Source of the DNA: Warburgia ugandensis
Lineage: Eukaryota > Streptophyta > Magnoliopsida > Canellales > Canellaceae
Length of the DNA stretch: 64,000 nt
Reading direction: 5' to 3'
Assembly (NCBI GenBank): GCA_035236585.1
Contig: CP141127.1
Coordinates: 65,019,495-65,083,494 of the forward strand
The position numbers were made by a program, and so were the translations under genes. Below, piece by piece: positions 4,960-52,158 of this stretch; the stretch's first letter is position 1, and every line of letters begins with the position of its first letter. The notes under the pieces are model-generated. The model saw only the letters and a list, made by a program, of their open reading frames with translations. It made no database searches and was not told the DNA's origin.

Positions 4960-7900
4960 AAATTTCACGGCCAAATTAATAATTGTTCACCTGACAATCG
5001 TCCCTGTGCAATTCTACATAGAATCATACATAAGCAATTTCTCTTGCAAAAATTTCAACCTTATGCAAATGACAAATGAGCAACAAATAACAGAAAAATA
5101 AGAAGATCATGGAACCACTGATTTTATGACCACATTGTGGAATTGCCAAACATTGAACAATATGTTAAAGTAACATATGATCAAGTTCAACTAAACAAAT
5201 GTCCCCAAAATATATCCCGAAATACGACATTACAAAGATTATTGGCAACCCTACACAACAAAGAACACAAATTAATTTCTACAATATCCAAGAGACAAGA
5301 TAACAAACAACAAGTACATAAGAGTAAAAACATGGCCTTGCAACCCAACTTGGCAATAAACATTCACAAGTTGAGGAAACACGAAAAAATTCAAGGACTG
5401 ATTTAATTTTAAAAAAGAAAAGAAGTAATTACGCTTCATTGTTCTAGCACGAGAGCACTCTAAAATGACTCTAAACATAAAAAGAGTACAAACTCCCCTT
5501 ATCAAGGCATCAACACTGGAACTTCAAAAAGGTAAGTAACTCAACATATATAATCCACAAATTTAAACATTACGAATTTGAAAAATTAAATCAGCATAGT
5601 TCTAAACTAAATCACATAACAATGAGAAAGAATTTAAAGTAGAATGAAAACGCCGTAGTGTTGTTCTTTGACATAAGGCACAGAGGTTATCCAAGTAAAA
5701 TCTCAAGCAAAGAGGCATCCTCTTAGTGTGGAAAGGAAATATAAGAAGTTGTTAGAGAACTTCAAGTGCAATCTAAATAAAAAAACCTACAAAAACTTCA
5801 ATGTTACATCAAATCTATTTAAACGGAAAAAAGGAACTATGAAACCGATCAACAAACCTAATATCAAATTTCACATCCAAATTAGTAATTGTTGTTCTCA
5901 TAATCTTCTGCATGCAACTCCATAACCAATCATATACAAAAGGCTCCTCATGCAAGAATTTCTACCCTGCACATATAACGAGTGAACAAGAAATAACTGG
6001 AAAATAAGAAGACCACACAAGTACTGATGTCATGTCCACATTCTGAAATAACCATATTAAAAGAAATATCTTAAAGTAAGGAAAGGTTAGGATCAACTTA
6101 ACCCATGTCCCCAGATCAATTTCAAAAATTGACAATGCAAAGATTAGCACCAATCCTGCACAACAAAAGGCACAACTAAATTTCAAAAACATCCAAGAGA
6201 CCATATAACAATCAACTTGAAAAACAGAGAATATAAGAGTACAACAATGGCCTCACAAGGTAACTCATAAAAAAAAATTCACAAGTTGCAGAAGGCCTTA
6301 AAATTTAAAGTACTGAAGGAAAGGTAAAGAAAAAAAAAAAAGAACAACTCTTCATTGTTCTTGTATGAGAGAACTCAAAAATGATATGCAAGAAAAAAAA
6401 AAAAGGCTCAAGACCCACTTTGCAAAACATTAACATTAGAAGCCCAAAAAGGCAAGTAACTCAACATCTGCAACACAGATTTTCAATATTACTAATTTAA
6501 AACATTAAATCTGCATATTTCTAACCCAAATGATAAGACCATAACAAAGAATTTAAAGCACGTTAAAAACACACTGGCAAACAGCATGGGAGTTATTTAA
6601 GCAAAACCCAAGCAGAGATGCAACATTTTATTATGCAAAGAAAATATAAGAAGTCATTAGAGAACATCAACTGCAGTCTAAACAAGAAAAAACAAAAATG
6701 TTATAAAAACTTCAACATCACATCAACTAGGTTAGAAAAGGGCAAAAGGGACTAAGAATGCCATCCGCAAACCCCTTATGAAATTTCACTGCTAGATTAA
6801 TTATTATTCACCTAACAATCGTTCCTGTGCAATTTCATATAGAATCATACATAAGAGATTCTTCTTACAGAAATTTCAAACTTGAGCACATGACAAGTGA
6901 AACACAACCAACAGTGTCATGGCCACATCACGGAATTGCCAAATTTTGAACAATATCTCAAAGAAACATAAGATTAGGTTCGAGGAAACCAATGTCCCCA
7001 AATATATCCTGAAATCTGATACTACAAAGGTTACTGCCAACCTTGCAAAACAAAGAATACAATTTAATTTTTATAATATCCTAAAGACCATACAAGAATC
7101 ATCACAAACAAAAGGTACATAAGAGAAACCATGGCCTTGCAATCCAACTCGCCAATCAACATTCACAAGTTGAGGAAACCCTGAAAAATTCAATTACTGA
7201 TTTTAATTTCCAAAAAGAAAAGAAGGAATGGCGCTCCATTGTTCTAGCAGGGGAGTACTTTAAAATGACACTGGCCCAAAAAGAAAATAAGCAGAAAACC
7301 TAACTTTTCAATACATAAACACTGAAACCCCAACAAGACAAGTAACTCAAGATATACAATCCACAAATTTCACCATTACAGACTACATTGAATCCGCTCA
7401 AAGAGGAAAAAAGGAACTGAGAAAGAGATCTCCAAACCACCAATATAATTTCACAGCCTTGGTGCAACGGTAGAGTTGTAGTCATGTGACCTTGAGGTCA
7501 CGAGTTCAAGGCGTGGAAATAACCTCTTGCAAAATGCAAGGTAAGGCTGAGTACTATTGATCCTTGTGGTCTGCCCCTTCCCCGGACCCTGCATAGCCGA
7601 GAGCTTCATGCACCAGGGCTGCCCTTTATTAGGCATTGTTCTCATAACAAATCTTCAGCATGTAGTTCCATAAAAAATCATACATAAGTAGCTACTGGCA
7701 CATAGTTTTCGACCCTACACATATGTCAAGCGAACAAGAAACAATAGGAAAAATTAGATAACTACTGATGTCATGACCTCATTGTGGAATTGCCACATTT
7801 ACAGAAACATCTTAAAAGTAGCAAAAGGCTAAGCTCAATTAAACCCAATTCTTCATATCAATCTAGAAAATGGACCCTGCAAAGATTAGCCCCAATCGTG

Positions 7901-10050
7901 GACAACAAAGAACATAACCAAATTTCTGAAACGTCCAAGAGACCATATAACAATCAACACAAGCAACTAAGTATATAAGAGTACATCCATGGTCTTTAAA
8001 AGCAACTATCCAATCAACATCTCAAGTGGAGGAAAGCCTAAAAAATTCAATCACTGATTTTAATTTCCAAAAAAAAAAAAAAAAAAAAAAGGAATGAAAC
8101 TTCTTATTCTAGCAGGAAAGTACTCTAAAATGACATTAGTAGAAAAATATAAGCACAAAACCCATTTTGTAAGACATCAACATTGGAAGAACAAAAGGAC
8201 GAGTAACACAACATCTGCAATCCACAGATTTGAATATTACCAATTACAAATATGAAATCTGCATGTTTATAAACAAAATCACATGATGCTAACAAAGAGT
8301 TCAAAGCAAGCCAAAAAACCCCTTGAGTAATTCATTGTCAGAAGGCAGGGAAGTTATCCAAGCAAAACCACAAGCAGATGTAGAAGCTGTTAGTAAATTT
8401 CAACTGCAATCTAAACAAGAAAGCAACAAAAACTTCAACATCACAATAAATCAGTTTAAAAAGGAAAAAAAGTTACAAAAGCTTCAATATCACATTGAAT
8501 CATTTTAAAGAGATAAACCAAACTAAAAAAAGAGATAAAAAAACCCATTATGAAATTACAAACCCAGATTAGTTATCATTATCCTCACAATATTTCCTGT
8601 GCAATTCCATAAAGAATCATACTCCTCGCACAAAAATTTCAAACCTGCGCATATGATGAGCAAACAAGAAACAACAGAAAAATAAGAAGATCAGAGAACT
8701 AATGATGCCATGACCACATTGTGGAATTGCCACATTTAGAGAAATATCTTGAAGTAACAAAATGTTAGGTTCGACTAAACCCAGGTCTCCGGATCAATCA
8801 TGAACATTGACCCTGCAAAGATTAGTGTCAACCCTGGATAACAAAGAACATAATTGAATTTCTAAAATATCAAAGAGAACATATAACAATCAACACAAAC
8901 AATGAGTATCTAAGAGTACAACCAAGGCCTCGCAACCCCACTTTCCAATCAACATTCACAGGTTGAGGAAACCTTGAAAAAATCAAGGACAGATATGAAT
9001 TTGTAAAAATAAAAAAGGAAAGGTTCTTTTTTGTTCTAGCAAAAGATTACATAAAAATGACATTGGCCAAAGAAAATAAACATAAAACACACTTTGAAAG
9101 ACATAACACTAGAACCCCTGAAAAACGATTAACAACACTTGTGATCCACAAATTTCAACATTACAAAATTGAAAAATTAAATCCGTAAATTTGTAAACTA
9201 AGTCATGTAACGCTAAGAAGAGTTCAAAATAGGCCCAAAGAGTAAAAAGGCACAGAGGTTATCCAAGCAAAATCTCAAGAAGAGATGCATCGACTTATTG
9301 TGGAAAAGAAACATAAGAGGTCTAAGTGAACTTCAACTGCAACCTAAACAAAAATAAAAGAGCTATGAAAACTTCAATATCACATTGAATCGGTTTAAAG
9401 TGGAAAAAAGCAAACCCAGAAAGACAAGTAACTCAACATCTGCAATACACAGATTATTACCAATTGAAAATATATTTCTAAACCAAATCATGTGACTTAA
9501 ACAAAGAGTTTAACACAGGTCAAAAACCCTTAGAAAATTTCATTGACAAAAGGCACAAATGTTAATCCAAGTAAAATCTTAAGAGGAGATGCATCCTTCA
9601 ACCACAACATAAGCAAAAACAAAATAAAAAGCTACAATTGATATCATATTGAATCAATTTAAAAAACTGAACAGGAACTCAGAAAGCAATCCTCAAATCC
9701 CTTATGAAATTTCACAGTTAGATTAATTATTGTTCTCCTGACAATCTTTCTTACATATGCAAGTCCTTGCGTAAAAATTTCAGCCCTGCGCATATGGCAG
9801 GCAAACAAGAAACAAAACGAAAATAAGTAGACAAGAGAACTACTAACTCCATTAACACATTGTAGAATGGCAACATTTAGAGAAATATCTTTGAGTAATA
9901 GAGTATCGGGTTCCACTAAAACCATTTCTCCAAATCAAACCTGAAATTTGACCCTTTAAAGAATAGCATCAACACAAGACCACAAAGAACACACAAGAAT
10001 TTCTAAAATTTCCAAGAGACTAGATAACAATCAATACAAGCAATGAGTAT
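4960..10050. repeat. Array segment, block A (part 1)
   Basis: About five units of the A-rich repeat with an Au SINE inside. Clean unit spacing can be read between the phrase 'aaatttcac' at 5866 and 6781 (915 bp). The + strand is A-rich and G-poor: in 6961-7020 I count 25 A, 14 T, 11 C and 10 G. The stretch 4960-8480 is colinear with about 45546-49045, including the SINE at the same place. Some units (8546-9697) carry an extra internal duplication that also occurs in 24661-25851. Short open frames on either strand here are composition effects and are not called as genes. Confidence 0.85.
7457..7629 (+). mobile_element. Au-type SINE, copy 1
   Basis: A tRNA-derived short element. The left part has an A-box-like stretch ('ggtgcaacggtagagttg') and a B-box-like stretch ('ggtcacgagttcaaggcgtgg'). 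It then has the family-typical 'cctcttgcaaaatgcaaggtaaggctg', a 'ccttgtggtctgccccttcccc' type body and a 3' end 'gggctgccctttatt'. This agrees with the Au SINE family known from many flowering plants. It sits after the array phrase 'aatttcacagcc'. The same junction recurs at copy 2 (48043), so the two are one insertion duplicated with the surrounding DNA. Transcription would need RNA polymerase III; activity today is unlikely. Confidence 0.88.
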
Positions 10051-10257
10051 TGTTAAAGTAGAGCCAAGAGAGAGAGATAGAGAGAAACCCTTAGAATGGG
10101 TGAATGTGTGTTGGTGATTTTGCACCTCACACTTAACACATATATATACTAAACAAGGATAGTTACATGCTCCTAACTGCACAATGTGGGACTAAAAATA
10201 AAGCAAAACTAAGACTAAGGCTAAGTAAAGCTATACAATACTATGCTATATTCAACA
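10051..10257 (-). repeat. Copia-2 3' LTR
   Basis: 207 bp. Read on the - strand it starts TGTTGAATATAGC and ends TTTAACA. It is nearly identical to 15069-15275. Confidence 0.93.
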
Positions 10258-10268
10258 CTCCCCCTCAA
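10258..10268 (-). promoter_or_regulatory. Copia-2 polypurine tract
   Basis: On the - strand TTGAGGGGGAG precedes the 3' LTR directly. Confidence 0.8.
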
Positions 10269-10315
10269 GAGTCATATGCACCAAGCTTGTTACAAATGAA
10301 TTTAATTCGAGGTCC

Positions 10316-13300
10316 TCAGAGAGATTTTGTGAAGATGTCTGCTAGTTGATCATTTGAATTGACGAAGCTAGTAGCAATACATCCCGACAAGATCTTTTCT
10401 CTAATAAAATGACAATCCACTTCTATGTGTTTGGTCCTTTCATGGAAAACTGGATTAGATGCAATATGTAAGGCTGCTTGATTATCACATATGAGCTTCA
10501 TATTTCCATCCTCTCCGAATTTCATCTCCTGGAGTAATTGTTTCAGCCAAATAAGTTCACATGTTGCCATAGCCATGGCTCGATACTCAGCTTCTGCATT
10601 TGATCTGGCAACTACATTTTGTTTCTTACTTTTCCAAGATACTAAGTTACCTCCAACAAAAACACAATATCCGGAGGTAGAACGCCTATCTAAAGGAGAA
10701 TCAGCCCAGTCAGCATCTATGTACCCAACAATTTGAGTGTGGCCTTTATCTTCATATAACAAACCTTAACCTAGTGCTCCTTTAATATATCAAAGAATGC
10801 GAACCACAACATCCCAATGACTATCACACAGTGATTGTAGGAATTGACTGACTACACTGACAGCAAAAGAGATATATGGTCGAGTAATGGTGAGATAATT
10901 CAGTTTACCCACAAGTCGCCGATATCTTCGAGAGTCCGCTAAAAGCTCCCCCTGTCCTGGTACAAGCTTAACATTCGGGTCCATAGGTGTGTCCACGAGC
11001 TTACAATCTAACATACTAGTTTCTTCCAAGATGTCTAAGCATATTTTCTTTGTGAAATGGTAATACTTATACTAGACTGAGCTACCTTAATTCCCAGAAA
11101 ATACTTTAGTTTTCGCAGGTCTTTAGTCTAAAAGTAATGGAAGAAATGTTGTTTAAGTCTCTAAATGCCATCCTAATCACTGCTTGTGATGACAATGTCA
11201 TCCACATAGACCACTAGATAGATACACTGACCTGAAGAGTTGTGCTGATAGAAAACAGAATGATCTGCTTCACTCCAAAGCATTCCAAATTCCTGAATAA
11301 CAGAGCTAAATCATCCAAACCATGTTCGAGGAGATTGTTTTAAACCTTATAGAGAAGGTGCAATTTGCACACTAAACCAGACTCCCCCTGAGCAACAAAG
11401 CCAGGTGGTTGCTCCATATAAACTTCCTCTGCTAAATCACCATGAAGGAAAGTATTTTTAATATCCAGTTGGTAAAGAGGCCAATGCCGCATAGCAGCCA
11501 TGGAGAGGAATAATCGAACAGAGGCAACCTTTGCAACTAGGGAAAAGGTGTCACCATAGTCAAGACCATAAATCTAAGTATAGCCCTTAGCAACTAGGCG
11601 GGCTTTAAGTCGATCAACTTGTCCATCAGGACCCATCTTAACAGTATATATCCAATGACAACCCACTATAGTTTTACCAGGTGCCAAAGGAACCAAGTCC
11701 CAAGTTCCATTCGTATGCAAAGCATTCATTTCATCAACCATGGCCTGTCTCCACCCAGGATGTGAAAGAGCCTCACTGGTGCTTTTGGGAGCAGAAATAG
11801 AGGACAAGAAGGAAATAAATGCATAATAGGCTGAAGCTAATCAATGGTAACTCAAAAAATTATGGATAGGTTGAGGATTGCGAGTAGATCGATCACCTTT
11901 TCGAAGAGCAATAGGCAAGCTGTCAACCGAATGCAGGGCTGAAGTAGGTGAAGCCGGTGGGACAGGGAGATTGTCATCAGGGACTTCAGTGGAACCTACA
12001 ACAACTTCAAGAGGAGGCCGGCGATGATAAACTTGAAGAGGACGAGAGACATCATCCGCAGGTGTGGAAATATAGGGAAGAGGTAAAATTTCAGAAATGG
12101 ACAGTGGCTCAACAATGGATGAGAAGAATGGTGATTGCTCAAAGAAAGTTACATCTCCTGAGAGAAGATATCGATTAGTGTCAAGAGAATAACAACGATA
12201 CCCCTTTTAAAGCATGGAATATCCCAAAAAGATGCATTTTGTGGCCTTAGCAGAAAGCTTATCTTGCCCAGGTGCAAGGTTGTGTACAAAACAAGTACAT
12301 CCAAAAACACAAGGAAGAAGATAAAGAGGTTGTGTGGGGAAGAGAATGGAATAGGGAATTTGACCATGCAACACAAAAGAAGGCATACGATTAATTAAGT
12401 AGCAAGCAATGAGAACAGCATCCCCCCAGAAACGAAAAGGAACATGACTATGAAGAAGTAAAGTGTGGGTTGTCTCTATGAGATGATGACTTTTGCGTTC
12501 AACAACTCCATTTGTTGAGGAGTGTGGGCACATGATGATTGGTGACGAATTCCTTGTTGAGACATAAAAGAAGAAAAATGTGCAGAAAAATATTCTCGTG
12601 CATTGTCACTACGTAAAACACAGATAGCAACATTAAATTGAGTTTGAATTTCAGCACAAAATTGCTTAAAGTTTGAGAATAATTCAGATTGATTCTTCAT
12701 AAGGAATAACCAAGTACATTAAGAATAATCGTCAATAAAAGTTACAAAGTACTGAAAACCCAAACTAAAAACAGTATGACTAGGACCCCAAACATTAGTG
12801 TGGACAAGTTCAAAGGGGAGCATAGCCTGATTATTGAGATGCCTTGGAAACAAAACACGAGTATGTTTTCCAAGCTGACAAGACTCACACTCAAGAGACG
12901 ACAAAGTAGAAAAATGAGGGACCATCTTTTGAAGTTTGGAGAGACTAGGATGGCTCAAATGATTGTGAATAAGAACAGGAGAATCAGTGGAGATAAAAGC
13001 AACAGGAGCTGTAGGTGAGGTGAGACGATAAAGGCCTTGAGGCTCACCCCCTGTACCAATCGTCTTCCCCGTACCTTGGTCCTGCAAGATTATATATTTA
13101 TTAGAAAAAGTGAGAGAGCAATTAAGAGTGCAGGTCGTTTTACTTATGGGAATAAGATTAAATGGGCACTCAGGAACATAAAGGATAGAGGTGAGAGGAA
13201 GAGTAGGAAGGGGATGAGCCAAACCAATACCTTTAGCTACAATTTTGAAACCATTGGCTTGAGTGATAGTAGGAAAAGTAGAATAACTAGTAAGAGAGGA

Positions 13301-13939
13301 GAAAAGGTATTTGTTACTAGATATGTGATCAGAAGCTCCAAAGTCTAGAATCCACGGGCCAATAGAAGAAGACTGGGTATAGCAAACAGTAGGATTACTA
13401 GTCTGAGCAACGAAGGCAGCGGAAGATGACTTGGCTGCCTGATACTGGAGGTACACATCATAGTCACTGCCAGTCAGGGTAATACTCTGAGATGTGAAGT
13501 CCTTAGATGAGTCAGGTAACTGGGTGTTAGATGACTGGGCAATATTGGCAGTGTGAGGTCTTTGCTCGTGTAGTTGGTAATACCAATCCCGAGTGTGTCC
13601 AATCTTATTACAGTATGTACATTGAAGATGCTGTCCTCGATTACGACCACCACCACAGCTGCCTCGAGTGTTTACCTGAGAGGCCAAAACTAAGAAATAT
13701 GAAGGGCCATCAAAAGTAATTGTCTGAGTAGAGGAGATACGCAACAAGCAGGCAAATACTTTCTCTAATGAGGGCACCGAAGGACTAGCAAGAATTTGAT
13801 CTTTGATGGATTCAAGGTCAAGGTGGAGTCCAATGAGAGTCAACACCATGAAAAACTTATCGGTCTGTGTTTGTTGGGCTTCTGCACCATCAATAGGAGG
13901 CATCAAAGACAAGAACTCCTTGAGGTACAATGGAAGCAA
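10316..13939 (-). pseudogene. pol: Copia-2 pol with second gag copy (frameshifted)
   Basis: Read on the - strand, the frame 13939-12719 begins inside the second gag copy. It passes a zinc knuckle whose last Cys is Tyr, the protease motif WILDFGASDH, and the integrase zinc-binding HHCC region, and stops just after 'FVTFIDDYS' at a TAA where Copia-1 has CGA. The integrase core continues in separate frames (12700-12476 and 12533-12207). RT begins at about 11807-11574, keeps YVDD near 11200, and RNase H occupies 11029-10316 with the ADW motif and a C-terminal 'DIFTKSL'. At least one stop and several frameshifts prevent a continuous polyprotein. Domain order is copia-like. Confidence 0.87.
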
Positions 13940-13941
13940 CG
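13422..13941 (-). repeat. Copia-2 gag duplication, copy A (Copia-1-like)
   Basis: This 520-bp block matches the next block (13942-14461) end to end with many substitutions, so it is not a fresh duplication. Its protein shares with Copia-1 the missing Glu codon in the 'LKEFLSLMPP' stretch, the Cys-to-Tyr zinc-knuckle change and the 'YYQLHEQRPHT' wording. Copy B has none of these. The copies are in tandem, in the same orientation. Confidence 0.88.
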
Positions 13942-14855
13942 AAAGATGACTTGGCTACCTGATACTGGAGGTACACATCATAGTCACTACCAGTCAAGGT
14001 AATATTCTGAGATGTGGAGCCCTCAGATGAGTCAGGTAACTGGATGTCGGATGATTGGACGATGTTAGCAATGCAAGGAGGTCGCCCGTGTAGTTGGTAA
14101 CACCGATCCCGAGTGTGTCCAATCTTATTACAATATGTGCATTGAGGACGCTGTCCTTGGTTACAACCACCACCACGGCCACCTCTAGTGTTTGCCTGAG
14201 AAGTCAAAACTGAGGAATCTGAAGGGCCATCAAAAGTAACTGCCTGAGTAGAGGAGATATGCAACAAGCGGGCAAATACTTCATCCAATGAGGGCACCGA
14301 AGGGCTAGCCAGAATTTGATCTCTGACGGATTCAAGGTTAGGGCCGAGCCCAATGAGAGTCAACACCATGAAAAACTTATCGGTCTGTGTTTGTTGGGCT
14401 TCTACACCATCAGTAGGAGGCATTAAAGACAAGAACTCCTCCTTAAGGGACACAATCTTTCCTATGTAAGTCAAAAGATCCATGTCCTGTTGTCTAACAT
14501 AAACAATGTCAGAAACAACTTTGTAAAAACATTGAATATCATTCGTGTATAAGCTCTTGGCCTGCGTCCAAAATTTGAAACATGTTTTATAGGCGCGAAG
14601 ATGATGTAAAACTTTGGGATCCATGGATTTCCATGATAGGCTGCATAATTGTGGATCAATCTTTTTCCATTGCACTTTGTTTGCCACAGAAATATCTTCC
14701 TCTTTCTTGACCAAATGGTCATCATAACCTTGACCCATAAACCATAATTCCACAGAGGCAGACCAAGACAGATAATTATCACTACCAATTAATTTCTCCG
14801 ACGTAATAATAGATCCAAAAATTAAATAAGTAAAAATACCATTTTTAGAAGCCAT
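13890..14855 (-). CDS. gag: Copia-2 gag (copy B), open but joined to an out-of-frame tail
   Basis: An open frame of 321 codons starting with ATG at 14855, just downstream of the LTR and primer-binding site. It encodes the copia gag core (N-terminal 'SDNYLSWSASVELWF' region, typical of gag polypeptides of LTR copia type) and then a Gly/Arg-rich segment. A complete CCHC knuckle follows: CTYC, then H four residues later, then the final Cys. After about residue 300 the frame crosses the junction with copy A (near 13941) and ends in a short unrelated tail, so it is cut off from protease. The Gag part could still be translated; whether it is expressed cannot be seen. Confidence 0.7.
   Translation of the reverse strand: MASKNGIFTYLIFGSIITSEKLIGSDNYLSWSASVELWFMGQGYDDHLVKKEEDISVANKVQWKKIDPQLCSLSWKSMDPKVLHHLRAYKTCFKFWTQAKSLYTNDIQCFYKVVSDIVYVRQQDMDLLTYIGKIVSLKEEFLSLMPPTDGVEAQQTQTDKFFMVLTLIGLGPNLESVRDQILASPSVPSLDEVFARLLHISSTQAVTFDGPSDSSVLTSQANTRGGRGGGCNQGQRPQCTYCNKIGHTRDRCYQLHGRPPCIANIVQSSDIQLPDSSEGSTSQNITLTGSDYDVYLQYQVAKSSFVASIVPQGVLVFDASY
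13942..14461 (-). repeat. Copia-2 gag duplication, copy B
   Basis: Second member of the tandem pair. It encodes the intact CCHC knuckle and the 'LKEEFLSLMPP' form, so it derives from a subfamily other than that of copy A and Copia-1. Confidence 0.88.
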
Positions 14856-15055
14856 GATTACTTATCTGGGTGGTCTACGGCGAAGATCGGCAGCAACAAC
14901 AATCTGGTGGCAGTAGCGGCGATCTTGGAACACTAGAGATGACAGAGGAGTGACCGGTAAAGAACCATGGTCGCCAAAGGAATTGCCGGAATGGATACAC
15001 GACCAAACCAAAAAGGAAAAAAAAGGAGAAGGTAGATAATTAGGGTTTCTCTTAT

Positions 15056-15068
15056 GGCTCTGATACCA
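15056..15068 (-). promoter_or_regulatory. Copia-2 primer-binding site
   Basis: On the - strand TGGTATCAGAGCC directly follows the 5' LTR. This is the canonical plant initiator tRNA-Met site. Confidence 0.88.
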
Positions 15069-15275
15069 TGTTAAAGTAGAGCCAAGAGAGAGAGATAGAG
15101 AGAAACCCTTAGAATGGGTGAATGTGTGTTGGTGATTTTGCACCTCACACTTAACACATATATATACTAAACAAGGATAGTTACATGCTCCTAACTGTAC
15201 AATGTGGGACTAAAAAGAAAACAAAACTATGACTAAGGCTAAGTAAAGCTATACAATACTATGCTATATTCAACA
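15069..15275 (-). repeat. Copia-2 5' LTR
   Basis: 207 bp, with about four differences from 10051-10257. It is followed on the + side by AGTAT, the target duplication. Confidence 0.93.
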
Positions 15276-17446
15276 AGTATATAGGAGTCAAACCATTGTC
15301 TCACAATCCAACTAGGCTACCAACGTTCACAAGTGAGGAGACCCTAAAAAATTGAAGCACTAATATGAATTTTCAAAATGAAAATTATTTGAATAACTCT
15401 TCATTATTCTAGCAAGAGAGAACACTAAAAAGACACTGGCCCAAAAAAATAAGCATAAAACCCACTTTGCAAGACATCAACAATTTTGAACTCCAGAAAT
15501 ATGAGTAATTCCACATCTGCAATTCACAAATTTCAAAATTACCAATTTGTAAAATTAAAATCGCATTTGTAAACTAAATCATGTAAGGCTAAGAAAGAGT
15601 TCAAAGCAGGCCAAACACCCCTAGAGTAATTCTTTGACAAAAGGCATTGAGGTTGTCCAAGTAAAAGCTCAAGCACAGATGCATCCTCTCATTATGCAAA
15701 GGATATATATGAAGTCATTAGCAAAGTTCAACTACAATCAAAACAAAAACAACTAAGAAGCTACCAAAACAAAAATATCATATCTAATTGGTTTAATGGG
15801 AAAACAACAACGAAAAAAGTGACCACACAAGCCCCTTATGAAATATTACAACTAGATTAGTTAGTGTTTTCCTAACCATCTCCCGCATGCAATTCCACAA
15901 AGAATCATACATAAGCAACTCCTCGTGCAGAAATTTCAATGCTGAACCTATGATGGGCGAACAAGATGCCATAGGAAAATAAGAAAATCAGGAAACTACT
16001 AACTTCTTGACATTGTGAAATTGCAACATCTAGAGAAATATCTTTAAGTAGCAAAAGGTTAGGTTCAACTAAACCCATGTCTCCATATCAATCCCATAAT
16101 CCCAACCCTAAAAAATTAGTGCTGAATTCTTTAAATATCCAAGAGATCAGATAACAACACAAACAGTGAGTATATAAGAGTGCAGCCATGGCTTCATAAC
16201 CCAACTCACCAATCAACATTCAAGAATACAGGAAACTCTAAACAGTTCAAGGACAGACTTGAATTTCCAAATGGAGGAAAATAAAACGATCGATGCTTCA
16301 TTATTCTGGACAAAGAGTACCCTAAAATTAGTGGAAAAAATAACACATAACCCGCTTCGCAAGACATTAACATTGGAACCCAGAAAGAAAAGTAATTCAA
16401 TATTAGCAATCACAAATTTCAACATTATCAATTTGAAAAATTAAATCCTTATATATCTAAACTAAACTAGGTAACGCAAACAAAGAGTTTAAAGTAGGCC
16501 AAAAACACCCCCATGTAATTCATTGACAAAAGGAACGAAGGTTACCTAAGCAAAATCTCAAACGGAAATGTTGTGCAAAAGAAAATATAAGTGAACTTCA
16601 ACTGCAATATAAAAAATAAAAAAAAAAACTAAAAAGCAACAAAAACATCAATGTCATATAAAATTAGTTCAAGGAACAAAAGAAGATCTAAGAAGGAAAT
16701 TTGGAAACCCCTTATGAAATTTCACAACTGGATAGTTACTCTTCTCGTGATAGTTTAGCGCATGCAATTCCATAAAGAATCAAACATACATAACTCCTCG
16801 AGCAGAAATTTCAAACATGTGCATATAACAAGAGAACAAGAAACAACAGGAACATAAGAAGATCGGAGAACTACTAATGTCATGACCACATTATAGAATT
16901 GCAACATTTAGAGAAATATCTTAAAGCAACAAAAGGATGAGTTCTACTAAACCCATGTCTCCATATCAATCCTGAAATTCGACCCTTCAAAAATTAGCGC
17001 CAACCTAGACAATAGAAAAGACAACTAAATTTGTGAAATATCCATGTGACCAAATAACAATCAACACAAACAGTGGCTATATAAGAGTACAATCATGGCC
17101 CCACAACCCAACTCGAAAATTAACATTAACAAGTTGAGAAAAACTCAAAAATTCAAGGACTAATTTTAATTTCCAAAGGGAAAAAAAAAGAAGAAGTAAT
17201 CACACTTCATTTTCATGGCCAAAGAGCACTCTAAAATGACACTGGCCCCCCCAAAAAAAGAAAAAAGTACAAAACCCCCTTTGTAAGACATCAACACATA
17301 ACCCAAAATGACAAGTAACTCAACATCTACAATCCACAAATTTCAACATTACAAATTTGCAAAAATAAATCCGCATATTTTTAAACTAAATCATGAGACG
17401 CTAACAAAGAGTTTAAAGTAGGCCAAAACCCACTAGAGTAATTCAT
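15276..17446. repeat. Array segment, block A (part 2)
   Basis: Array units continue across Copia-2. The phrase 'ccccttatgaaat' recurs with 876 bp between 15841 and 16717. The segment up to about 17235 is colinear with about 50040-52158. It contains the empty site of SINE copy 3 ('atatctaaac', 16453-16462). Confidence 0.85.
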
Positions 17447-19233: not shown

Positions 19234-19241
19234 CGTGCAAC

Positions 19242-23105: not shown

Positions 23106-27096
<3,991 letters not shown>

Positions 27097-40192: not shown

Positions 40193-40245
40193 AAACTCCG
40201 CCAATGATGGTCCCGAGCCTGGATGAAAAAGGAGGAGGGTCCTGC

Positions 40246-40519: not shown

Positions 40520-40550
40520 GACATGAATCGAAAACAGACATTCCCTCAAG

Positions 40551-40825: not shown

Positions 40826-41470
40826 ATACCATGGAGGTCAAGAAAGGCAATAGTAAATAGGGTATCACCAGAACATAAGATTCGTATCACCACATGGAAT
40901 ATAGGGACACTAACAGGCAAGAGTTTGGAGTTAGTAGACGTGATGAAACATAGGAGAGTCAACATCGCTTATATCCAAGAAACCAAGTGGAAAGGGGCAA
41001 AAGCAAGAGAAATAGATGGGTATAAATTATGGTACGTAGGAAAGGAAAATAACAGAAATGGCATTGGAATAATAGTGGATAAGGAATTAAAGGATAAAGT
41101 TGTGGATGTTGAAAGAATCAGCGATAGAATTATAATAATAATAATTGTTTTAGGAGAGCAGATTATAAATGTTATAAGTGCATACGCACCACAAGTAGGG
41201 TTACAAGAGATAATCAAGAAACAGTTTTGGGAAGATATGGAGGGAGTCATGCAAGAAATTCCCAACACTAAGCGGATATTTATAAGTGCAGACTTAAACG
41301 GCCATGTAGGAAAAGATAAGGAAGGATATGATAGAATACACGGTGGATATGGTATGGGTGAACGAAATAAGATGGGGGAGAATATCCTCGATTTTGCTTT
41401 GTCATATAACCTATCTGTTGCAAATACACTCTTTAAGAAGAGGGATGAACATTTAATAACCTTTAAAAGT

Positions 41471-41542
41471 AAAAAGGGCAGCCCCGGTGCACGAAGCTCC
41501 CGCCTATGCGGGGTCCGGGGAAGGGGCGGGCCACAATGGCCT
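41471..41542 (-). mobile_element. Au SINE 3' fragment inside LINE-1
   Basis: On the - strand this reads as the 3' third of an Au SINE: 'gcccgccccttccccggacc', 'gcgggagcttcgtgcaccgg', 'ggctgccctttt'. LINE-2 lacks it at the corresponding place (28895-28915), so it was added to LINE-1, or came with its source copy. Confidence 0.85.
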
Positions 41543-41619
41543 AAAGTAGACTTCATAAAAGCCAAATAGACTTTTTTCTACTTAGGAATAATGAACAATC
41601 TACATGTAAGGATTGTAAG

Positions 41620-43757
41620 GTGATAACTGGTGAGAGTTTGACCTCACAACATAGGTTAATGGTTATGGATATCCATATCAAAAGATGGAGAAAAAGAACT
41701 AAACTTAATACACACCCAAAAACTAAGTGGTGGAACTTAAAAGGAGAGAAAATAACCTCCTTCAAAAATAAGTTGATGGTAGAAGAAAAGTGGAACTATG
41801 AAACAGAAGTAAATACTATGTGGACTAATATGGCTAAGTGCATTAAGAAAGTGGCAAAAGATGTCTTAGGAGTACCTAAAGGTAAAAGGGTATTAACAAA
41901 GGAAACATGGTGGTAGACTGAAACAGTTCAAAAAGTTATTAAAGAAAAACGGATGTGTTTTAAAGCATGGCAGAAGATTAGAAATAATGAAAACTATGAG
42001 CAGTATAAGAATGCTAAAAATGTTGCTAAGAGAATAGTGAGGCTAAACTTAAAGCATATGATGAGCTCTACAATAGACTAGGAACAAGAGAAGGTGAGAA
42101 AGATGTGTTTAAACTTGCAAAAGTAAGAGAACAGAAGGGTAAGGACTTAGATCATGTTAGGTGTATTAGAAGTGATGATCAAAGGGTATTAGTCAAAGAT
42201 GATGAGATCAAATAAAGGTGGGAAACATACTTTCAAAAATTGTTATATGACAATGGCCCTGAGAATATAGGGATTGAAAATACTATAAATCAAAATAACA
42301 TTGGATATTATAGGTATGAACGTAGGATTAGAATACCTGAAGTAAAAGAGGCCTTGAAAAAGATGAAATCAGGAAAGGCCATGGGGCCTGATGGTATACC
42401 AATAGAGGTTTGGAAGCATATGGAAGACATTGGGGTAGTTTGGTTGACCAAGTTCTTTAACAAGATTATAAAATCAAAGAAAATGCTTGATGAGTGGAGG
42501 AAAAGCTCTATTGTACCAATTTATAAGAATAAAGGAGACATATAGAGCTGCACTAATTATAGAGGGATCAAACTTATGAGCCATACTATGAAACTTTTTG
42601 AAAGAGTGATTGAGAAGAGGCTGTGTCATGAAACAAATGTATCAGAAAATCAATTTGGTTTCATGCCTGGGAGGTCTACCATGGAGGCTATTTTCTTACT
42701 AAGACAATTAGTAGAGAAATATAGGGAGAGGTGAAAAGACCTCCACATGGTCTTTATCGTTAATATGGAGAGTGTTGGGTGGTAAAGGGGTTTCGCAAGG
42801 ATATATAGACATAATTAAAGATATGTATGAGGGAACGGTAACAAATGTTAAGACCACTAGTGGTGTGACTGGTGATTTTCCTGTCACTATAGGATTGCAC
42901 CAAGGATCGGCATTGAGTCCATACCTTTTCACATTGGTTATGGATGAGCTAACAAAACATTTGCACGAGGAGATTCCTGGTGCATGTTATTTGCAGATGA
43001 TATAGTCTAAATTGATGAGACAAGGGAGGGTGTAAACATAAAGCTAGAATTATGGAGACAAGCATTAGAATCTGAAGGATTTAAAATTAGTCGAACTAAG
43101 ACAGAATATATGGAATATAATTTTAGCAAAGAGAGTAGGAGTAGAACACCAGTCAAGATTGATAACCAAGAAGTCCCCGTCAAAGACCACTTTCAGTACT
43201 TGGGATCAATAATTCATGAGAGTGGAGAGATTGAGAGGGAAGTTATCCAGAGAATTCAAGCGGGTTGGAACAAATGGAGATATGCATCTGGAGTTTTGTG
43301 TGATCAACGGGTGCCACTCAAACTAAAAGGAAAATTCTATAGGATGGCCATAAGGCCGGCCATGCTCTATGGATCAAAATGTTGGGCAGTTAAGGAACAT
43401 CATACTCATAGGATAAGTGTCGCAGAAATGAGGATGTTGAGATGGATGAGCGGTAAGACAAGAAAAGATAGAATTCGAAATGAAAATATTCGAGGAAATT
43501 TAGGGATAGCACCAGTAGGTAATAAGATGAGGGAGACTAGACTTAGATGGTTTGGACATGTTCAAAGGAGACCAACAACGGCACCGGTTAGAAGAAGTGA
43601 GGCAATACAAGTAGAAAGTTTTAAAAGGGCAAGGGGAAGGCCCAAAAGAACGTGGATAGAAGTGGTGAGGAAAGATTTAAAAACTTTGGGACTAAATGAA
43701 GACATGGTATTTAATAGAGTGGAATGGAGGAATAAGATTCATGTGGCCGACCCCTAA
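41620..43757 (+). pseudogene. LINE-1 ORF, reverse transcriptase and C-terminal region
   Basis: Fragmented continuation. Frame 41620-41916 holds the end of the endonuclease and the linker. Frame 42240-42545 holds RT motifs ('SGKAMGPDGIPIEVWKHM', 'EWRKSSIVPIYKNKGD'). The region 42550-42720 reads 'NYRGIKLMSHTMK' and 'ENQFGFMPGRST'. At 42745-42775 the stretch that in LINE-2 encodes '[12 protein letters not shown]' is missing, so the motif A Asp is lost. Frame 42772-43005 has 'GLHQGSALSPYLFTLVMDEL', and the FADD box at about 42985 is reached only by a frame change. Frame 43110-43757 is the C-terminal part with 'LRWFGHVQRRP' and 'RGRPKRTWIEVVRKDLK'. Confidence 0.85.
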
Positions 43758-43789
43758 TTGGGATAAGGTCTTGATGATGATGATGATAA

Positions 43790-45424
43790 TCTTCTGCATG
43801 CAACTTCATAACAAATCATACATAAAGGGCTCCTCACACAAGATTTTCTACCTAGTGCATATGACGAGTAAACAAGAAATAAATGAAAAATAAGAAAATC
43901 CCAGAAAGTACTTATGTCATGACCACACAGAGAAATATCTTAAAGTAAGAAAAGGTTAGGTTTGATAAAGCCTATTTTTCCATATCAATTCCAAAAATTT
44001 ACAAAGTAAAGATTAGCACCAATCCTGCACCACAAAGAACACAACTAAATTTCAGAAACATTCAACAGAGCAGATAGCAGTCAACACAAAAAACTGAGTA
44101 TAAAAGAGTACAACCACAGCCTCGCAATGTAAATCACCAAAAAAATTCACAAGTTGAGGAAGGCATTAAAAATTCAAGGACTGATTATAGTTTCAAAAAG
44201 GAAAAAAAGAGAAAAGGAATGACTCTTCATTGGTCTAGCAGGTGAGTACTCAAAAATGGCAGGAGAAAAAAAAAGAGCACAAAACCCACTTTCCAAGACA
44301 TCAACCTTAGAAGCCCAGAAAGACTACCAACTCAATATCTACAATGCAGATTTAAACATTACTAATTTAAAATATTAAATTAACAATTTTCTAAACCAAA
44401 CCATGTGACAATAAGAAAGAGATTAAGATAGGTCAAAAACCACATAAGAGTAACTCACTAACAAAATGCATGGGGGTTTATCTAAGCAAAACCGCAATCA
44501 GAGATGCAACATCTTATTATGTAAAGGAAATATAACAAGCCATTAGAGAACATCAACTGCAGTCTAAACAAGAAAAAACAAAAATACTACAAAAACTTCA
44601 ACATCACATCAAATTGGATTCAAAAGGAAAAAAGGGACTACAAAAGTCATCCGCACACCTTTATGAAATTTCACTGCCAGATTAATTATTATTCACCCGA
44701 CAATCGTCCTTGTGTAATTCTATATAGAATCATACATAAGTGATATCCTTCGCAGAAATTTCAACCTTATGCATATGACAAGTGAAAAACAACCAACAAT
44801 AGAATAAGAAGATCAAAGAACTACAGATGTCGAGGCCACATTATGGAATTGCCAAATTTTGAACAATATGTTGAAGTAACACAAGATTAGGTTCAAGGAA
44901 AACAATTGTCCCAAATTATATCCTGAAATCCGACACTACAAAGATTACTACCAACCCTGCACAACAAAGAACACAAATTAATTTCTATAATATCCAAGAG
45001 ACCAGGCAACAATTAACATAAACAACGAGTAGGCATGGGAGTCATCTAAGCAAAACCCAAGCAGAGATGCAACATCTTATTATGCAAAGGAAATATAAGA
45101 AGCCGTTAGAGAGCATCAACCATAATCCAAATACGAAAAACCAAAAATCCTACAAAAGCTTCAACATCACATCAAATTGGTTTAAAAGGGAAAAACAGAC
45201 TAAGAAAGACATCCACAAATCCCTTACGAAATTTCACAGCACAATTAATAACTGAGATGCAACATCTTATTATGCGAAGGAAATATAAAAAGCCGTTAGA
45301 GAGTATCAACCATAATCCAAATACAAAAAAACAAAAATCCTACTAAAGCTTCAGCATCACATCAAATTGGTTTAAAAGGAAAAAAACAGACTAAGAAAGA
45401 CATCCACAAATCCCTTATGAAATT
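43790..45424. repeat. Array segment between LINE-1 and the RTE fragment
   Basis: It continues the unit interrupted at 40192. From about 44903 it is the counterpart of window bases 1-330. It contains a 190-bp tandem duplication (45064-45253 and 45254-45427), nearly identical and therefore recent. Confidence 0.85.
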
Positions 45425-45541
45425 TCATCATCATCATCATCAAGACCTTATCCCAATTAGGGGTCGGCCACATGAATCTTATTCCTCCATTCCACTCTAT
45501 TAAATACCATGGTTTCATTTAGTCCCAAAGTTTTTAAACAA
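45425..45541 (-). mobile_element. Orphan RTE LINE 3' end
   Basis: On the - strand it reads from 'gtttaaaaactttgggac' through 'tggaatggaggaataagatt' to 'aattggggataaggtcttgatgatg', matching the last 115 bp of LINE-1, with the short-repeat tail at the left. It is a severely 5'-truncated insertion, common for LINEs. Confidence 0.88.
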
Positions 45542-48042
45542 CACAACTAATAACTAATCACCACACAATTGTCCTAGTGCAATTCCACATAGAATCGTAC
45601 ATAAGCAATTCCTCTCGCAAAAATTTCAACCTTGCTCATATGACGTGTACAAAAACAACAGCAAAAAAGACGATCATTGAACCATTGATTTAATGACCAC
45701 ATTGTGGAATTGCAAACTTTGAACAATATCTTAAAGTAACATAAGATCAGGTTCAACTAAACCAATGCCCTCCCCAAAATACAACACTACTGAGATTATT
45801 GGCAACCCTGCACAACAAAGAACACATTAATTTCTACAATATCCAAGAGACTAGACAACAATCAACAAAAACAACAAGTACATAACAGCAAAACCATGGC
45901 CTCGCAACCCAACTCGCCAATAAACATTCACAAGTTGAGGAAACACGGAAAAATTTAAGGACTAATTTTAATTTTCAAAAAGAAAAGAAGTAATTACACC
46001 TCATTCTTCTAGTATGAGAGTACTATAAAATGACACTAACCAAAAAAAAGAGCACAAACACCCCTTACCAAGACATCAACACTGGAACTTCAGAAAGGCA
46101 AGTAACTCAACATATATGATCCACAAATTTAAACATTACGAATTTGAAAAATTAAATCAGAATATTTCTAAACAAAATCACATAACACTAAGAAATAATT
46201 TAAAGCAGGCTGAAAACCCCATAGTGTTATTCTTTGACATAAGGAGCAAAGGTTATCCAAGCAAAATTTCAAGCAGAGAAGCATCCTCTTAGTGTGGAAA
46301 GGAAATATAAGAAGTTGTTAGAGAACTTCAAGAGCAATCTAAAAAAACGAGCTACAAAAACTTCAATGTCAAATCAAATCTATTTAAACGGAAAAAAGGA
46401 ACTATGAAAACAATCCACTACCCTGACATCAAATTTCACATCCAAATTAGTAATTGTTGTTCTCACAATCTTCTGCGTGCAACTCCATAACCAATCATGT
46501 ATAAAAGGCTCCTCATGCAAGAATTTCTACCCTGCACATATGACGGTTGAACAAGAAATAACTGGAAAATAAGAAGATAAGAAAAGTAATGATGTCATGT
46601 CCACATTGTAAAATAACCATATTAAGAGAAATATCTGAAGGAAAGAAAAGGGTAGGATCGACTAAACCCATGTCTCCAAATCAATTTAGAAATTTGACAA
46701 TGCAAAGATTAGCACCAATCCTGCACAAAAAAGAACACAACTAAATTTCAGAAACATCTAAGAACCATATAACAGTCAACTTGAAGAACTGAGAATATAA
46801 GAGTACAACAACAGCCTCACAATGTAACTCATCAAAAAACATTCAAAAGTTGGGAAAGGCCTCAAAATTTTAAGGACTAAAGGAAAGAAAAATAAAAATA
46901 AAAAATGACTCTTCATTGTTCTAGTAGGAGAGAACTAAAAAATAATAGGCAAAAAAAAATAAAAATGCTCAAGACCCACTTTGCTAGACATCAGCATTAG
47001 AACCCCAGAAAGGCAAGTAACTCAACATCTGCAACAAACAGATTTTCAATATTACTAATTTAAAACATTAAATCCGCATATTTCTAGACCAAATGATAAG
47101 ATGCTAACAAAGAATTTAAAGCATGCTGAAAACACACTGACAGAAGGCATGGGAGTTATCCAAGCAAAACCCAAGCAGAGATTCAACATCTTATTATGCA
47201 AAGGAAATATAAGAAGTCATTAGAGAGCATCAACTGTAGTCTAAACAAGAAAAAACAAGAATGCTACAAAAACTTCGACATCACATCAACTAGGTTAAAA
47301 ATGGAAAAAGAGACTAAGAAAGCAATCCTCAAATCCCTTATGAAATTTCACAGCCAGATTAATTATTATTCACCTAACAATCGTTCCTGTGCAATTTCAT
47401 ACACAATCATACATAAGTGATTCCTTTGGCAGAAATTTCACCTTGCGCATATGACAAGAGAAACACAACCAACAGCAAATTAAGGCGATCAAAGAACTAC
47501 TGATGTCATGGCCACATTACGGAATTGCCAAATTTTGAACAATATCTTAAAGAAACATAAGATTAGGATCGAGGAAACCAATGTCCCCAAATATAACCCA
47601 AAATCCGACACTACAAAGATTACTGCTAACCTTGCACAACAAAGAACACAATTTAATTTCTATAATATCCTAAAGACCAGACAACAATCAACACAAACAA
47701 CGAGTACATAAGAGAAAGCATGGGCTTGCAATCCAACTCACCAATCAACATTCACAAGCTGAGGAAACCCTGAAAAATTCAAGGACTGATTTTAATTTCC
47801 AAAAAGAAAAGAAGGAATGGCGCTTCATTCTTCTCACAGGGGAGTACTTTAAAATGACACTGGCCAAAAAAACAAAAAATCACAACTTAACTTTTCAAGA
47901 CATCAACACTAAAACCCCGAAAGACAAGTAACTCAAGATATACGATCCACAAATTTCACCATTACAGGACGACATTGAATCTGCTCAAAGAGGAAAAAAG
48001 GAACGGAGAAAGAGATCTGCAAACCACTAATATAATTTCACA

Positions 48043-48216
48043 GCCTTAGCACAACAGTAGAGTTGTCATTGTGTGACCTTGAGGTCACGGGTTCAAGGTG
48101 TGGAAACAGCCTCTTGCAAAATGCAAGGTAAGGCTGCGTAATATTGACCCTTGTGGTCCACCCCTTCGCCGGAGCTTGCATACGCAGGAGCTTCATGCAC
48201 CAGGGGTGCCCTTTAT
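48043..48216 (+). mobile_element. Au-type SINE, copy 2 (paralogue of copy 1)
   Basis: It has the same body and the same array junctions as 7457-7629, with independent substitutions. The flanks before ('gagatctgcaaaccactaat') and after ('attgttctcataac') match those of copy 1, so the SINE was present before blocks A and B separated. Confidence 0.88.
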
Positions 48217-51208
48217 TTGGTATTGTTCTCATAACAATCTCCAGCTTGCAGTTCCATAAAAAATCATACATAAGAAGCTGCTTGTACATAGTTTTCGACC
48301 CTGCACATATGACAAGTGAACAAAAAACAATAGGAAAATTAAGAAAATTAGATAACTACTGATGTCATCACCCCCTTGTGGAATTGCCACATTTACAGAA
48401 ATATCTTAGAAGTAACAAAAGGCTAAGCTCAATTAAACCCATTTCTTCATATCAATCCAGGAAACAGACCCTGCAAAGATTAGCCCCAATCCTGGACAAC
48501 AAAGAACGCAACAAATTCTGAAACGTCCAAGAGACCATATAACAATCAACACAAGCAACCAAGTATATAAGAGTACAACCATGGTCTTCCAAAACAACTC
48601 TTCAATCAACATCACAAGTTGAGGAAAGCTTGAAAAAATTCAAGCACTGATTTTAATTTTGAAAAAAAAAAAAAGGAATGAAGCTTCTTATTCTAGCCAG
48701 AAAGTACTCTAAAATGAAATTAGGAGAAAAATATAAGCAGAAAACCCACTTTGCAAGACATCAACATTGGAAGAACAGAAAGACGAGTAACACAACATCT
48801 GCAATCAACAGATTTGAATATTGCCAATTACAAATATGAAATCTGCATATTTATAAACGTAATCACATGATGCTAACAAAGAGTTCAAAGTAAGCCAAAA
48901 AGCCCTTGAGTAATTCATTGTCAGAAGGCAGGGAGGTTATCCAAGTAAAACCACAAGCAGATGTAGAAGTTGTTAGTAAATTTCAACTGCAATCTAAACA
49001 AGAAAGCAACAAAAACTTCAACATCACAATGAATCAGTTTAAAATGGAAAAAAAGGGACTCGGAAAGCAATTCGCAAACCCCATATGAATTTCACAGCCA
49101 GATTAATAATTATTCAACTGACAATCATCCACGTGCATTTCCATAAAGAATCAAACATAAGAGATTCCAAGTGTAGAAATTTTAACCCAGCGCATATAGC
49201 AAGTGAACAAGAAACAACAGGAAAATAAAAGAACTAGAGAACCACAAATGTCATGACCACATTGTGGAGATGCAACATTTACAAAAGATGTTAAAGCAAC
49301 AAAAGATTTTGTTCAACTAAACCCATGTCTCCAAATCTATCCTGCAAACCAACTCTATAAAGATTAATACCAACCCTAGACAAGAAAGAACACAACTGAA
49401 TTTCTAAAACATCCAAGAGACCATATAACAATCAAGACAAAATATGACTATATACAAGTATAACGATGGTTCGCAACCCAACTCGCCAATCAACATTTGC
49501 AAGTTCAAGAAATCCTAAAAAATTCCAGGACTGATATGAATTTTCAAAACAAAAATAAAAGGATTGAAGGTTCATTGTTCCAACAGAATACTATAAAAAG
49601 CTACAATCAATATCATATTGAATCAATTTAAAGAACAGAGCAGGAAATAAGAAAGCACTTCGCAAATCCCTTATGAAATTTCATAGCTAGATTTGTTATT
49701 GTTCTCCTGACAATCATCCGCATGCGATTTCACAAAGAATCATACATATGAGAGTCCTTGAGTAAAAATTTCAGCCCTGCGCATATGGCAGGTGAACAAG
49801 AAACAAAAGGAAAATAAGTAGACAAGAGAACTACTAATGTCTTGACCACATTGTGGAATGGCAACATTTAGAAAAATATCTTCGAGGAACAGAATATTGG
49901 GTTCGACTATAACCATTTCCCCAAATCAAACCCAAAATCCAACCCTAAAGATTAGCATAAACACGAGACAACAAAGAACACAACAGAATTTCTAAAATTT
50001 CCATGAGACCAGACAACAATCAATACAAGCAATGAGTATATAGGAGTCAAACCATGGCCTCACAATCCAACTCGCCAATCAACGATCACAGGTGAGGAGA
50101 ACCTGAAAAATTCAGGCACTGATATGATTTTCAAAATGAAAATGATTTAAATAACTCTTCATTGTTCTAGCACAAGAGTACACTAAAAAGACACTGGCCC
50201 AAAAAAATTAAGCATAAAACCCGCTTTGCAAGACATCAACACTTTTGAAAGCCAGAAATACGAGTAACTCAACATCTACAATTCACAAATTTCAAAATTA
50301 CCAATTTGTAAAATTAAAATCACATTTCTAAACTAAATCACGTAATGCTAAGAAAGAGTTAAAAGCAGGCCAAACACCCCTAGAGTAATTCTTTGACAAA
50401 AGGCACTGAGGTTGTCCAAGTACAAGCTTAAGTGCATGTGCACCCTCCTATGGTGCAAAGGATATATATGAAGTCATTAGCAAACTTCAACTACAACCAA
50501 AACAAAAACAACTAAAAAGCTACCAAAACTTCAATATCATATATAACTGCTTTGACAGGAAAACAACAACTAAGAAAGTGACACACAAGCCCCTTATGAA
50601 ATATTACAACTAGATTAGTCAGTGTTTTCCTAACCATCTTCGCATGCAATTCCACAAAGACTCATACATAAACACTCCTCATGCAGAAATTTCAATGCTG
50701 AATCTATGATGGGCGAACAAGATGCCACAGGAAAATAAGAAAATCAGAAAACTACTAACGTCTTGACATTGTGAAATTGCAACATCTAGAGAAATATCTT
50801 TTAAGTAGCAAAAGGTTCGGTTCAACTAAACCCATGTCTCCATATCAATCCCATAATCCCAACCCTTAAAAATTAGCACGGAATTCTTTAAATATCCAAG
50901 AGACCAGATAACAACACAAACAGTGAGCAAATAAGAGTGCAGTAATGGCTTCATAACTCACCTCTTGAATACAGGAAACTCTAAACAATTCAAGGACAGA
51001 CTTGAATTTTAAAATGGGAAAAAAAAAAAAAAAGGAACAGTGCTTCATTATTCTGGCCAAAGAGTACTCTAAAATTAGTGGAAAAAATAACACAACCTGC
51101 TTTGCAAGACATTAACACTGGAACCCAGAAAGAAAAGTAATTCAACATTAGCAATCCACAAATTTCAACGTTACCAATTTGAAAAATTAAATCCTTATAT
51201 ATCTAAAC

Positions 51209-51370
51209 GGTAAAAGTTGTCATCATGTGACCTTAGGTCACGGGTTCAAGGCGTGGAATCAGCCTCTTGCAAAATGCAAGGTAAGGCTGCCTATTATAGG
51301 CCCTTATGGTCTGCCCCTTCCCTGGACCCCAATGGGCGGGAGCTTCGTGTACCGGGGCTGCCCTTTTTTT
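51209..51370 (+). mobile_element. Au-type SINE, copy 3, with perfect target duplication
   Basis: Slightly shortened at the 5' end, with a T-rich 3' end ('gggctgccctttttt'). It is flanked by a perfect 10-bp duplication atatctaaac (51199-51208 and 51371-51380). The paralogous site in block A, 16453-16462, has a single copy and no SINE. This is the youngest clear SINE event in the window. Confidence 0.93.
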
Positions 51371-52158
51371 ATATCTAAACTAAACCAGTTGACGCGAACA
51401 AGGAGTTTAAAATAGGCCAAAAACACCCCAATGTAATTCATTGACAAAAGGCACGAAGGTCACCTAAGCAAAATCTCAAACAGAGATGCATCCTCTTATT
51501 GTGCAAAGGAAATACAACAAATAGTAAGTGAACTTCAACTACAATATAAATAACCAAAAACTAAAAAGGTACAAAAACATCAATGTCATATTGAATTAAT
51601 TCAAGGAACAAAAGAAGAACTAAGAAGGCAATCTACAAACCGCTTATGAAATTTCACAACTAGATTACTTACTCTTTCGTGATAATCTTCCACATGCAAT
51701 TCCATAAAGAATCTAACATAAATGACTCCTCGCGCAGAAATTTCAAACATGTGCATATAACGGGAGAACAAGAAACAACAGGAACATAAGAAGATTAGAG
51801 AACTACTAATGTCATGACCACATTATAGAATTGCAACATTTAGAGAAATATCATAAAGTAACAAAAAGATGAGTTCTACTAAACCCATGTGTCCGTATCA
51901 ATCCTGAAATTCGACCGTTCAAAAATTACCGCCAACCTAGAAAATAAATAAGACAACTGAATTTGTGAAATATCCAAGTGACCAAATAACAATCGACACA
52001 AACAATGGCTATATAAGAGTACAACCATGGCCTCACAACCCAACTTGTCAATTAACATTAACAAGTTGAGCAAACCTCGAAAAATTCAAGGACTGATTTG
52101 AATTTCCAAAGAGAAAAAAAATAAAGTAATCACACTTCATTGTTCTGGCCAGAGAACA

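Follow-up and report, generated by a model that had tools for sequence, protein, structure and literature searches.

Nested insertions and a very probable tandem block duplication inside an old repeat array of Warburgia ugandensis

Tandem segmental duplication by unequal crossing-over is a textbook process, and satellite arrays are commonly too homogenised for single exchanges to be read. In the part of Vondrak et al. (PMC7004042) drawn on here, plant satellite arrays are described as long, head-to-tail, tied to chromosome regions and associated with retroelements. REANNOTATE, in the portion of its description used here (PMC2672092), takes relative order from nesting and age from long terminal repeat (LTR) divergence. 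The locus reported here lies in Warburgia ugandensis, in an assembly of 1.12 Gb in 14 contigs (GCA_035236585.1). The window, a stretch of 64,000 nucleotides, corresponds to C2:65,019,495-65,083,494, C2 being the contig that carries it (CP141127.1). Around the window lies an ~83-kb array of A-rich units of ~900 bp, with the main array at C2 about 64,988,607-65,071,658. A tandem block duplication inside this old array, ordered by nested insertions, is the explanation in which we have high confidence.

Window coordinates are used throughout, negative numbers lying left of the window start. Sixteen stretches around unit matches were retrieved, and the analysis used one continuous, N-free region of 123,494 bases.

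Colinear blocks and nested insertions

According to an earlier sequence-only reading of the window, two blocks, A and B, are colinear. Self-comparison bore this out along diagonals of 83-91% identity between block A, which in the window comprises 1-330 and 4960-17234, and block B, which there comprises about 44907-52164.

12-331 with 44914-45234: A/B diagonal, 90.7% identity
4974-9057 with 45545-49599: A/B diagonal, 84.9% identity
9624-10050 with 49593-50039: A/B diagonal, 83.1% identity
15276-16462 with 50035-51208: A/B diagonal, 89.6% identity
16449-17234 with 51367-52164: A/B diagonal, 87.1% identity
1-330, plus strand: block A left of the insertion Copia-1, matching 44914-45234 at 90.7%; the chain runs on leftward
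4960-10050, plus strand: block A array including the short interspersed nuclear element (SINE) SINE-1; ~8475-9623 is without orthologous B counterpart
15276-17234, plus strand: right end of block A, containing the empty site of SINE-3 (16453-16462)
44907-52164, plus strand: block B, the part known from the earlier reading; the array ends at 52164

The pooled Kimura two-parameter distance (K2P, hereafter K) between A and B in the window part was 0.108 +/- 0.005 (5435 sites), leaving out the long interspersed nuclear element (LINE) LINE-1, SINE-1, 8561-9808, -12104 to -11610 and -7251 to -4370. The earlier reading was to fall if A and B were no closer to each other than to other units. The window part of block A was cut into 29 bins of ~250 bp, each of which was compared with its B counterpart and with the rest of the 123-kb region; the counterpart scored highest for 23 of them. 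The six exceptions were 4960-5208, a near tie (83.6 vs 83.9%, 216 vs 243 bits), and five bins at 8599-9808. Among the matches listed in the self-comparison, many other unit pairs were 65-80% identical and some internal pairs 82-90%. The pair 34198-35536 and 38853-40199 reached 90.4%, as close as A/B, so that A/B is not the sole duplication here. Overall, two colinear copies in the same orientation were found that are much closer mutually than to the surrounding repeats, as in a tandem segmental duplication. Plain colinearity over the full blocks, as first proposed, broke down at about 8475-9623.

The insertions that differ between the copies were examined at their junctions and empty sites, which were read base by base.

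331-4959, plus strand: Copia-1, in A; LTRs 331-536 and 4749-4959, target-site duplication (TSD) AAATT
45229-45233, plus strand: Copia-1 empty site in block B, with a single AAATT
10051-15275, minus strand: Copia-2, in A; TSD AGTAT
50035-50039, plus strand: Copia-2 empty site in block B, with a single AGTAT
51209-51370, plus strand: SINE-3, in B only; TSD ATATCTAAAC
45250-45540, no strand assigned: 174-bp tandem duplication (94.8%) followed by a LINE fragment, B only, beside the Copia-1 site

Copia-1 occurred only in A, with AAATT at 326-330 and 4960-4964, and Copia-2 likewise only in A, with AGTAT at 10046-10050 and 15276-15280; SINE-3 occurred only in B, with ATATCTAAAC at 51199-51208 and 51371-51380 and a single copy in A at 16453-16462. 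That the target site stands only once in the copy without the element means that these are insertions and not clean losses. A further element in A, 0.77 kb long, has terminal inverted repeats and is taken here to be MULE-like; it is flanked by the 9-bp target repeat TTTAAAATA, and its site is present once in B with one mismatch. In B, the inverted 3' LINE fragment in 45250-45540 is 98.2% identical to the 3' end of a further LINE, LINE-2.

Both Copia elements have the features of Ty1/copia elements, namely LTRs, 5-bp target repeats and copia-type Pol domains. Pfam RVT_2 scored above cut-off in two Copia-1 pieces and below it in the Copia-2 piece (24.7 of 31.6 bits). Pfam gag_pre-integrs and Pol_BBD were above cut-off in both elements, on separate frame pieces in Copia-1, while the Pfam gag was below cut-off in both. 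No Pfam family was found for the pieces 4157-4636 (Copia-1) and 10319-10765 (Copia-2). Copia-2 also contains an internal direct duplication of 513 bp (13408-13920 and 13928-14440, 87% identical).

Other insertions are shared by the copies or belong to the interior of B.

7459-7627, plus strand: SINE-1, A copy, aligned with the B copy
48046-48214, plus strand: SINE-1, B copy, aligned with the A copy
28110-31150, plus strand: LINE-1, common to both copies, Pfam RVT_1
40200-43787, plus strand: LINE-2 with its left neighbour sequence, in B; a paralogous stretch near 35530 is without LINE-2

SINE-1, presumably Au-like as the earlier reading also named it, sits at one unit position in A and B, as had been stated. 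The A copy of LINE-1 lies at about -18290 to -15100 and is flanked by the 17-bp TSD AGTGAAGTACTAATGCC. Since its 3' junction is identical in A and B, LINE-1 is also older than the duplication; SINE-1 was rightly placed before it by the earlier reading, in a list that was incomplete. LINE-1 is presumably of the RTE clade, with Pfam RVT_1 above cut-off in two pieces. In LINE-2, RVT_1 was just under the cut-off in one piece (28.4 of 29.6 bits), and no Pfam family was found in three others. RVT_1, no LTR and a target-site repeat identify such elements as LINEs, the TSD being seen for LINE-1 in A. The counterpart of the LINE-2 stretch is absent from A, where the unit phase jumps from 882 to 197 near -922. 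As the internal copy at 35.5 kb is empty, LINE-2 postdates it.

LTR divergence was the clock proposed by the earlier reading, and the LTR and A/B divergences were bootstrapped (n = 1000). The LTRs of Copia-1 differ by K 0.078 (95% 0.040-0.122) and those of Copia-2, the younger of the two by this measure, by 0.020 (0.005-0.040), against an A/B divergence of 0.107 (0.100-0.116). Both values are below A/B as expected, but the clock orders Copia-1 only weakly; its place is settled by the empty site in B. The proposed order of SINE-1, block duplication and remaining insertions is therefore supported by the shared SINE-1, the single-copy empty sites and the LTR divergences below A/B.

Extent of the duplication, its joint and an older paralog

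The duplication itself stood, while its extent proved larger than first described: block A measures 40.9 kb, not 17.2, and block B 25.8 kb, not 7.3. Left of the window it continues for about 23.7 kb, as far as about -23672 (C2:64,995,822), so a window edge can conceal most of a duplication. The colinear chain consists of 17 pieces, of which 14 run from -23672 to 17234 against 26324-52164. The three leftmost pieces are weaker (79.7, 80.0 and 81.1%) and were excluded from the block.

26322-45234, plus strand: left-hand portion of block B, which pairs with -23672 to 331, as seen from the chain and the divergences
26309-26321, plus strand: junction of the older paralog X and B, unit phase 461 to 579, the probable duplication joint
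23136-26308, plus strand: block X, an older patchy paralog, colinear with A 6583-10050 and B 47140-50100

Pooled K in the extension was 0.107 +/- 0.004 (6272 sites) compared with 0.108 inside the window, and this equal divergence in both halves is the most telling evidence for a single duplication event. In the extension, the counterpart was the best match in 21 of 37 bins. Near -12900 to -12600, A and B differ by 0.3 kb of unit sequence that is absent from B; an insertion was rejected as its cause, the extra sequence in A being unit DNA.

At the joint, the unit phase jumps from 461 to 579 at 26308/26318 and identity with A resumes at AACACATAG. The joints were read from the assembly sequence, which would also suit an artefact in which two haplotypes of one block were set in tandem (haplotypic duplication). 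Such an artefact is extremely unlikely, as K of 0.107 would be large for allelic haplotypes and no N occurs at 26308/26322.

Several observations weigh against a single block duplication. The exclusions behind the pooled K were picked after the bin test, which biases the pooled values somewhat low; with nothing dropped, 15 block segments span K 0.091-0.171, LINE-1 reaching 0.140 and SINE-1 0.166. Copia-1 LTR divergence equalled or exceeded A/B in 8.9% of bootstraps, and its interval overlaps 0.107. One of the three weak far-left pieces, the only one measured, gave K = 0.198. In the extension, 16 of the 37 bins were better matched elsewhere; ten of these are every bin of -7251 to -4370, and for five of the ten a local copy within A scores better, at 94-98%, which implies that exchange went on after the duplication. 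Finally, B is without a counterpart of 17235-26308. After a simple tandem duplication, this stretch would be expected again right of 52164, yet the profile found no plus-strand unit in the 31.8 kb retrieved there.

These local tracts, the mismatch at 8.5-9.6 kb and five other measured internal duplications of similar age (K 0.09-0.13) would fit an A/B likeness built up by piecemeal unit exchange, whether by gene conversion or by a series of small unequal exchanges, in place of one block copy. We regard this as improbable, since both copies hold the LINE-1 and SINE-1 insertions, stay colinear for upwards of 20 kb and show equal K in both halves.

Under the block duplication, one unequal exchange would have copied in tandem a stretch already holding LINE-1 and SINE-1, with copy A now extending from -23672 to 17234 or beyond and copy B from 26322 to 52164. 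The copies would have diverged to K about 0.107, A gaining Copia-1, the 0.77-kb terminal-inverted-repeat element and Copia-2, and B gaining SINE-3 and the small duplication with the LINE 3' fragment beside the Copia-1 site. Different units would have been lost from each copy. Colinearity, shared and empty sites and divergence are observed directly; from them we infer unequal crossing-over, a joint at 26308/26322 and loss of the right end of B past the counterpart of 17234.

Block X differs from A and B by K 0.15-0.19 in most pieces and 0.21-0.32 in two. Left of the SINE-1 site, its K to A/B is 0.18, and immediately right 0.21-0.26. At X 24415-24680 it is 0.30-0.32 to A/B, and at 25781-26206 it is 0.18-0.19, while 24687-25190 and 25191-25780 match A only, with 0.15 and 0.17, respectively. 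By eye, X carries an uninterrupted unit where SINE-1 sits in A and B; the site was read in this way because automatic alignment had put the right side of X under SINE-1 (A-X K 0.64). If X is the nearest outgroup at this site, SINE-1 arrived between the split of X and the split of A and B.

X also bears on the stretch at 8.5-9.6 kb. There, A 8566-9057 differs from B 49100-49599 by K 0.302, near background, and from X by 0.153, while A 9058-9623 has no counterpart in B and matches X at K 0.173. An odd phase joint 877|560 (873|556) is common to A and X and not found in B, and each copy has its own break, B at 49599 (phase 503) and A near 8474. Gene conversion from X to A was rejected, as 0.153 and 0.173 exceed the pooled A-B value of 0.107. 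It would seem that the older state persists here in A and that B is the copy which departs from it. The reading with the fewest steps would be an ancestor with both units, of which each copy lost a different one by deletion.

Array, unit and flanking sequence

A genome search with the unit 4960-5900 returned at least 115 matches and one with a second unit at least 111, all of those listed lying on C2. In addition to the main array, a few units were found at C2 64.81-64.86 Mb and a second cluster, in both orientations, at 69.17-69.33 Mb, ~4 Mb away. A unit profile of 883 positions, built from 40 full units drawn from all clusters, annotated the array from -31009 to its right end at 52164 with every unit on the plus strand, and 44,443 bases of the region were alignable to it. 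The head-to-tail, same-orientation units over tens of kb are those of a satellite. The homogenised units and high copy number of satellites are not seen, with a median pairwise identity of 70.6% (median difference 29%) among the 40 full units and matches of at least 115 and 111.

The plus strand of the unit consensus contains 44% A and 13% G, a strong strand asymmetry (window 4960-52164). Of 962 differences used to test strand-asymmetric mutation as a source of the A-richness, 814 were polarised and 148 were not; the A>G to T>C ratio was 0.97 and three other types leaned to A (p 0.01-0.03), under a unit-majority polarisation that is itself biased.

A T-rich minus strand with AG-ended pyrimidine stretches and a minus-strand frame of ~45 residues that recurs in many units might suggest a minus-strand gene, giant or multi-copy, with the units as its exon-intron modules, the duplication then being a gene duplication. 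Among 70 genome matches to this frame, 17 are stop-free, but 53 have stops, and off C2 nothing matches it better than E 0.03. Variation in the unit showed no three-base periodicity (lowest permutation value 0.12 in 153 overlapping windows), and conservation is even along the unit, with 25-base means of 0.74-0.86. A coding origin was rejected on periodicity, stops and the lack of a good off-C2 match, and the gene-module explanation as a whole is very unlikely. One unit (24687-25547, minus strand) folded no better than 20 shuffles (z -0.02), and neither an Rfam match at gathering threshold nor a tRNA was found in the window. The unit behaves like array DNA free of visible constraint.

The array may tentatively be seen as a satellite that nearly ceased homogenising, with its clusters on one chromosome (64.8-65.07 and 69.17-69.33 Mb) and large rearrangements that cluster at K about 0.09-0.13 among those measured (A/B and five internal pairs), a view we hold as possible but doubtful. 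The local 94-98% tracts inside A weigh against a complete end of exchange. If true, a nearly stopped satellite leaves a readable record of growth by block duplication, then decay.

Within and beside the array, further features were seen. At 20733-23135 lies an A-rich (39% A) non-unit stretch, whose right end matches the start of several paralogous alignments at ~23136. Element frames at -29765 to -24794 (C2 about 64,989,730-64,994,700), inside the array and left of the duplicated block, belong to what we take to be a caulimovirid-type endogenous element; it was dropped as a dating mark, since it lies outside the block and is silent on order. Just beyond the left array end, at -39493 to -31447, lies a presumably gypsy-like element with 0.77-kb repeats that are 97.8% identical. 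In the right flank, the stretch 54029-54336 holds an inverted part, 54157-54336, that is 87.8% identical to 22965-23141, and the one weak minus-strand unit match of this flank (22 bits) falls in it. A tandem array of a 42-bp ATATC-rich unit occupies 57721-57932, near degenerate minus-strand frames. A PPR-like gene in the right flank, proposed from the look of three minus-strand frames, was discarded because those frames had no Pfam match.

Comparison with known systems

The literature search, which was not made by organism, gave nothing with a link to this locus. An LTR element as founder of the array did not come to light, with no search dedicated to one. The units are divergent enough to align, order and relatively date single duplications, deletions and insertions. 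The locus is thus a useful worked example of array evolution that changes no general view: it is an ordinary kind of genome history in which the insertions are unusually legible.

Like a textbook tandem segmental duplication, the copies are colinear, in the same orientation, on the same chromosome and near neighbours; unlike it, copy B is without the right end that A has, and the copies appear to have lost different units since. As far as the consulted part of PMC7004042 describes plant satellite arrays, the locus shares with them a long, head-to-tail, region-specific array associated with retroelements, whereas its units are only ~70% alike and the listed matches lie on one contig. The same logic of nesting and LTR divergence as in REANNOTATE (PMC2672092, in the portion used) was followed here, with the difference that the object dated is a duplication, which falls between the insertions common to both copies and those found in one.

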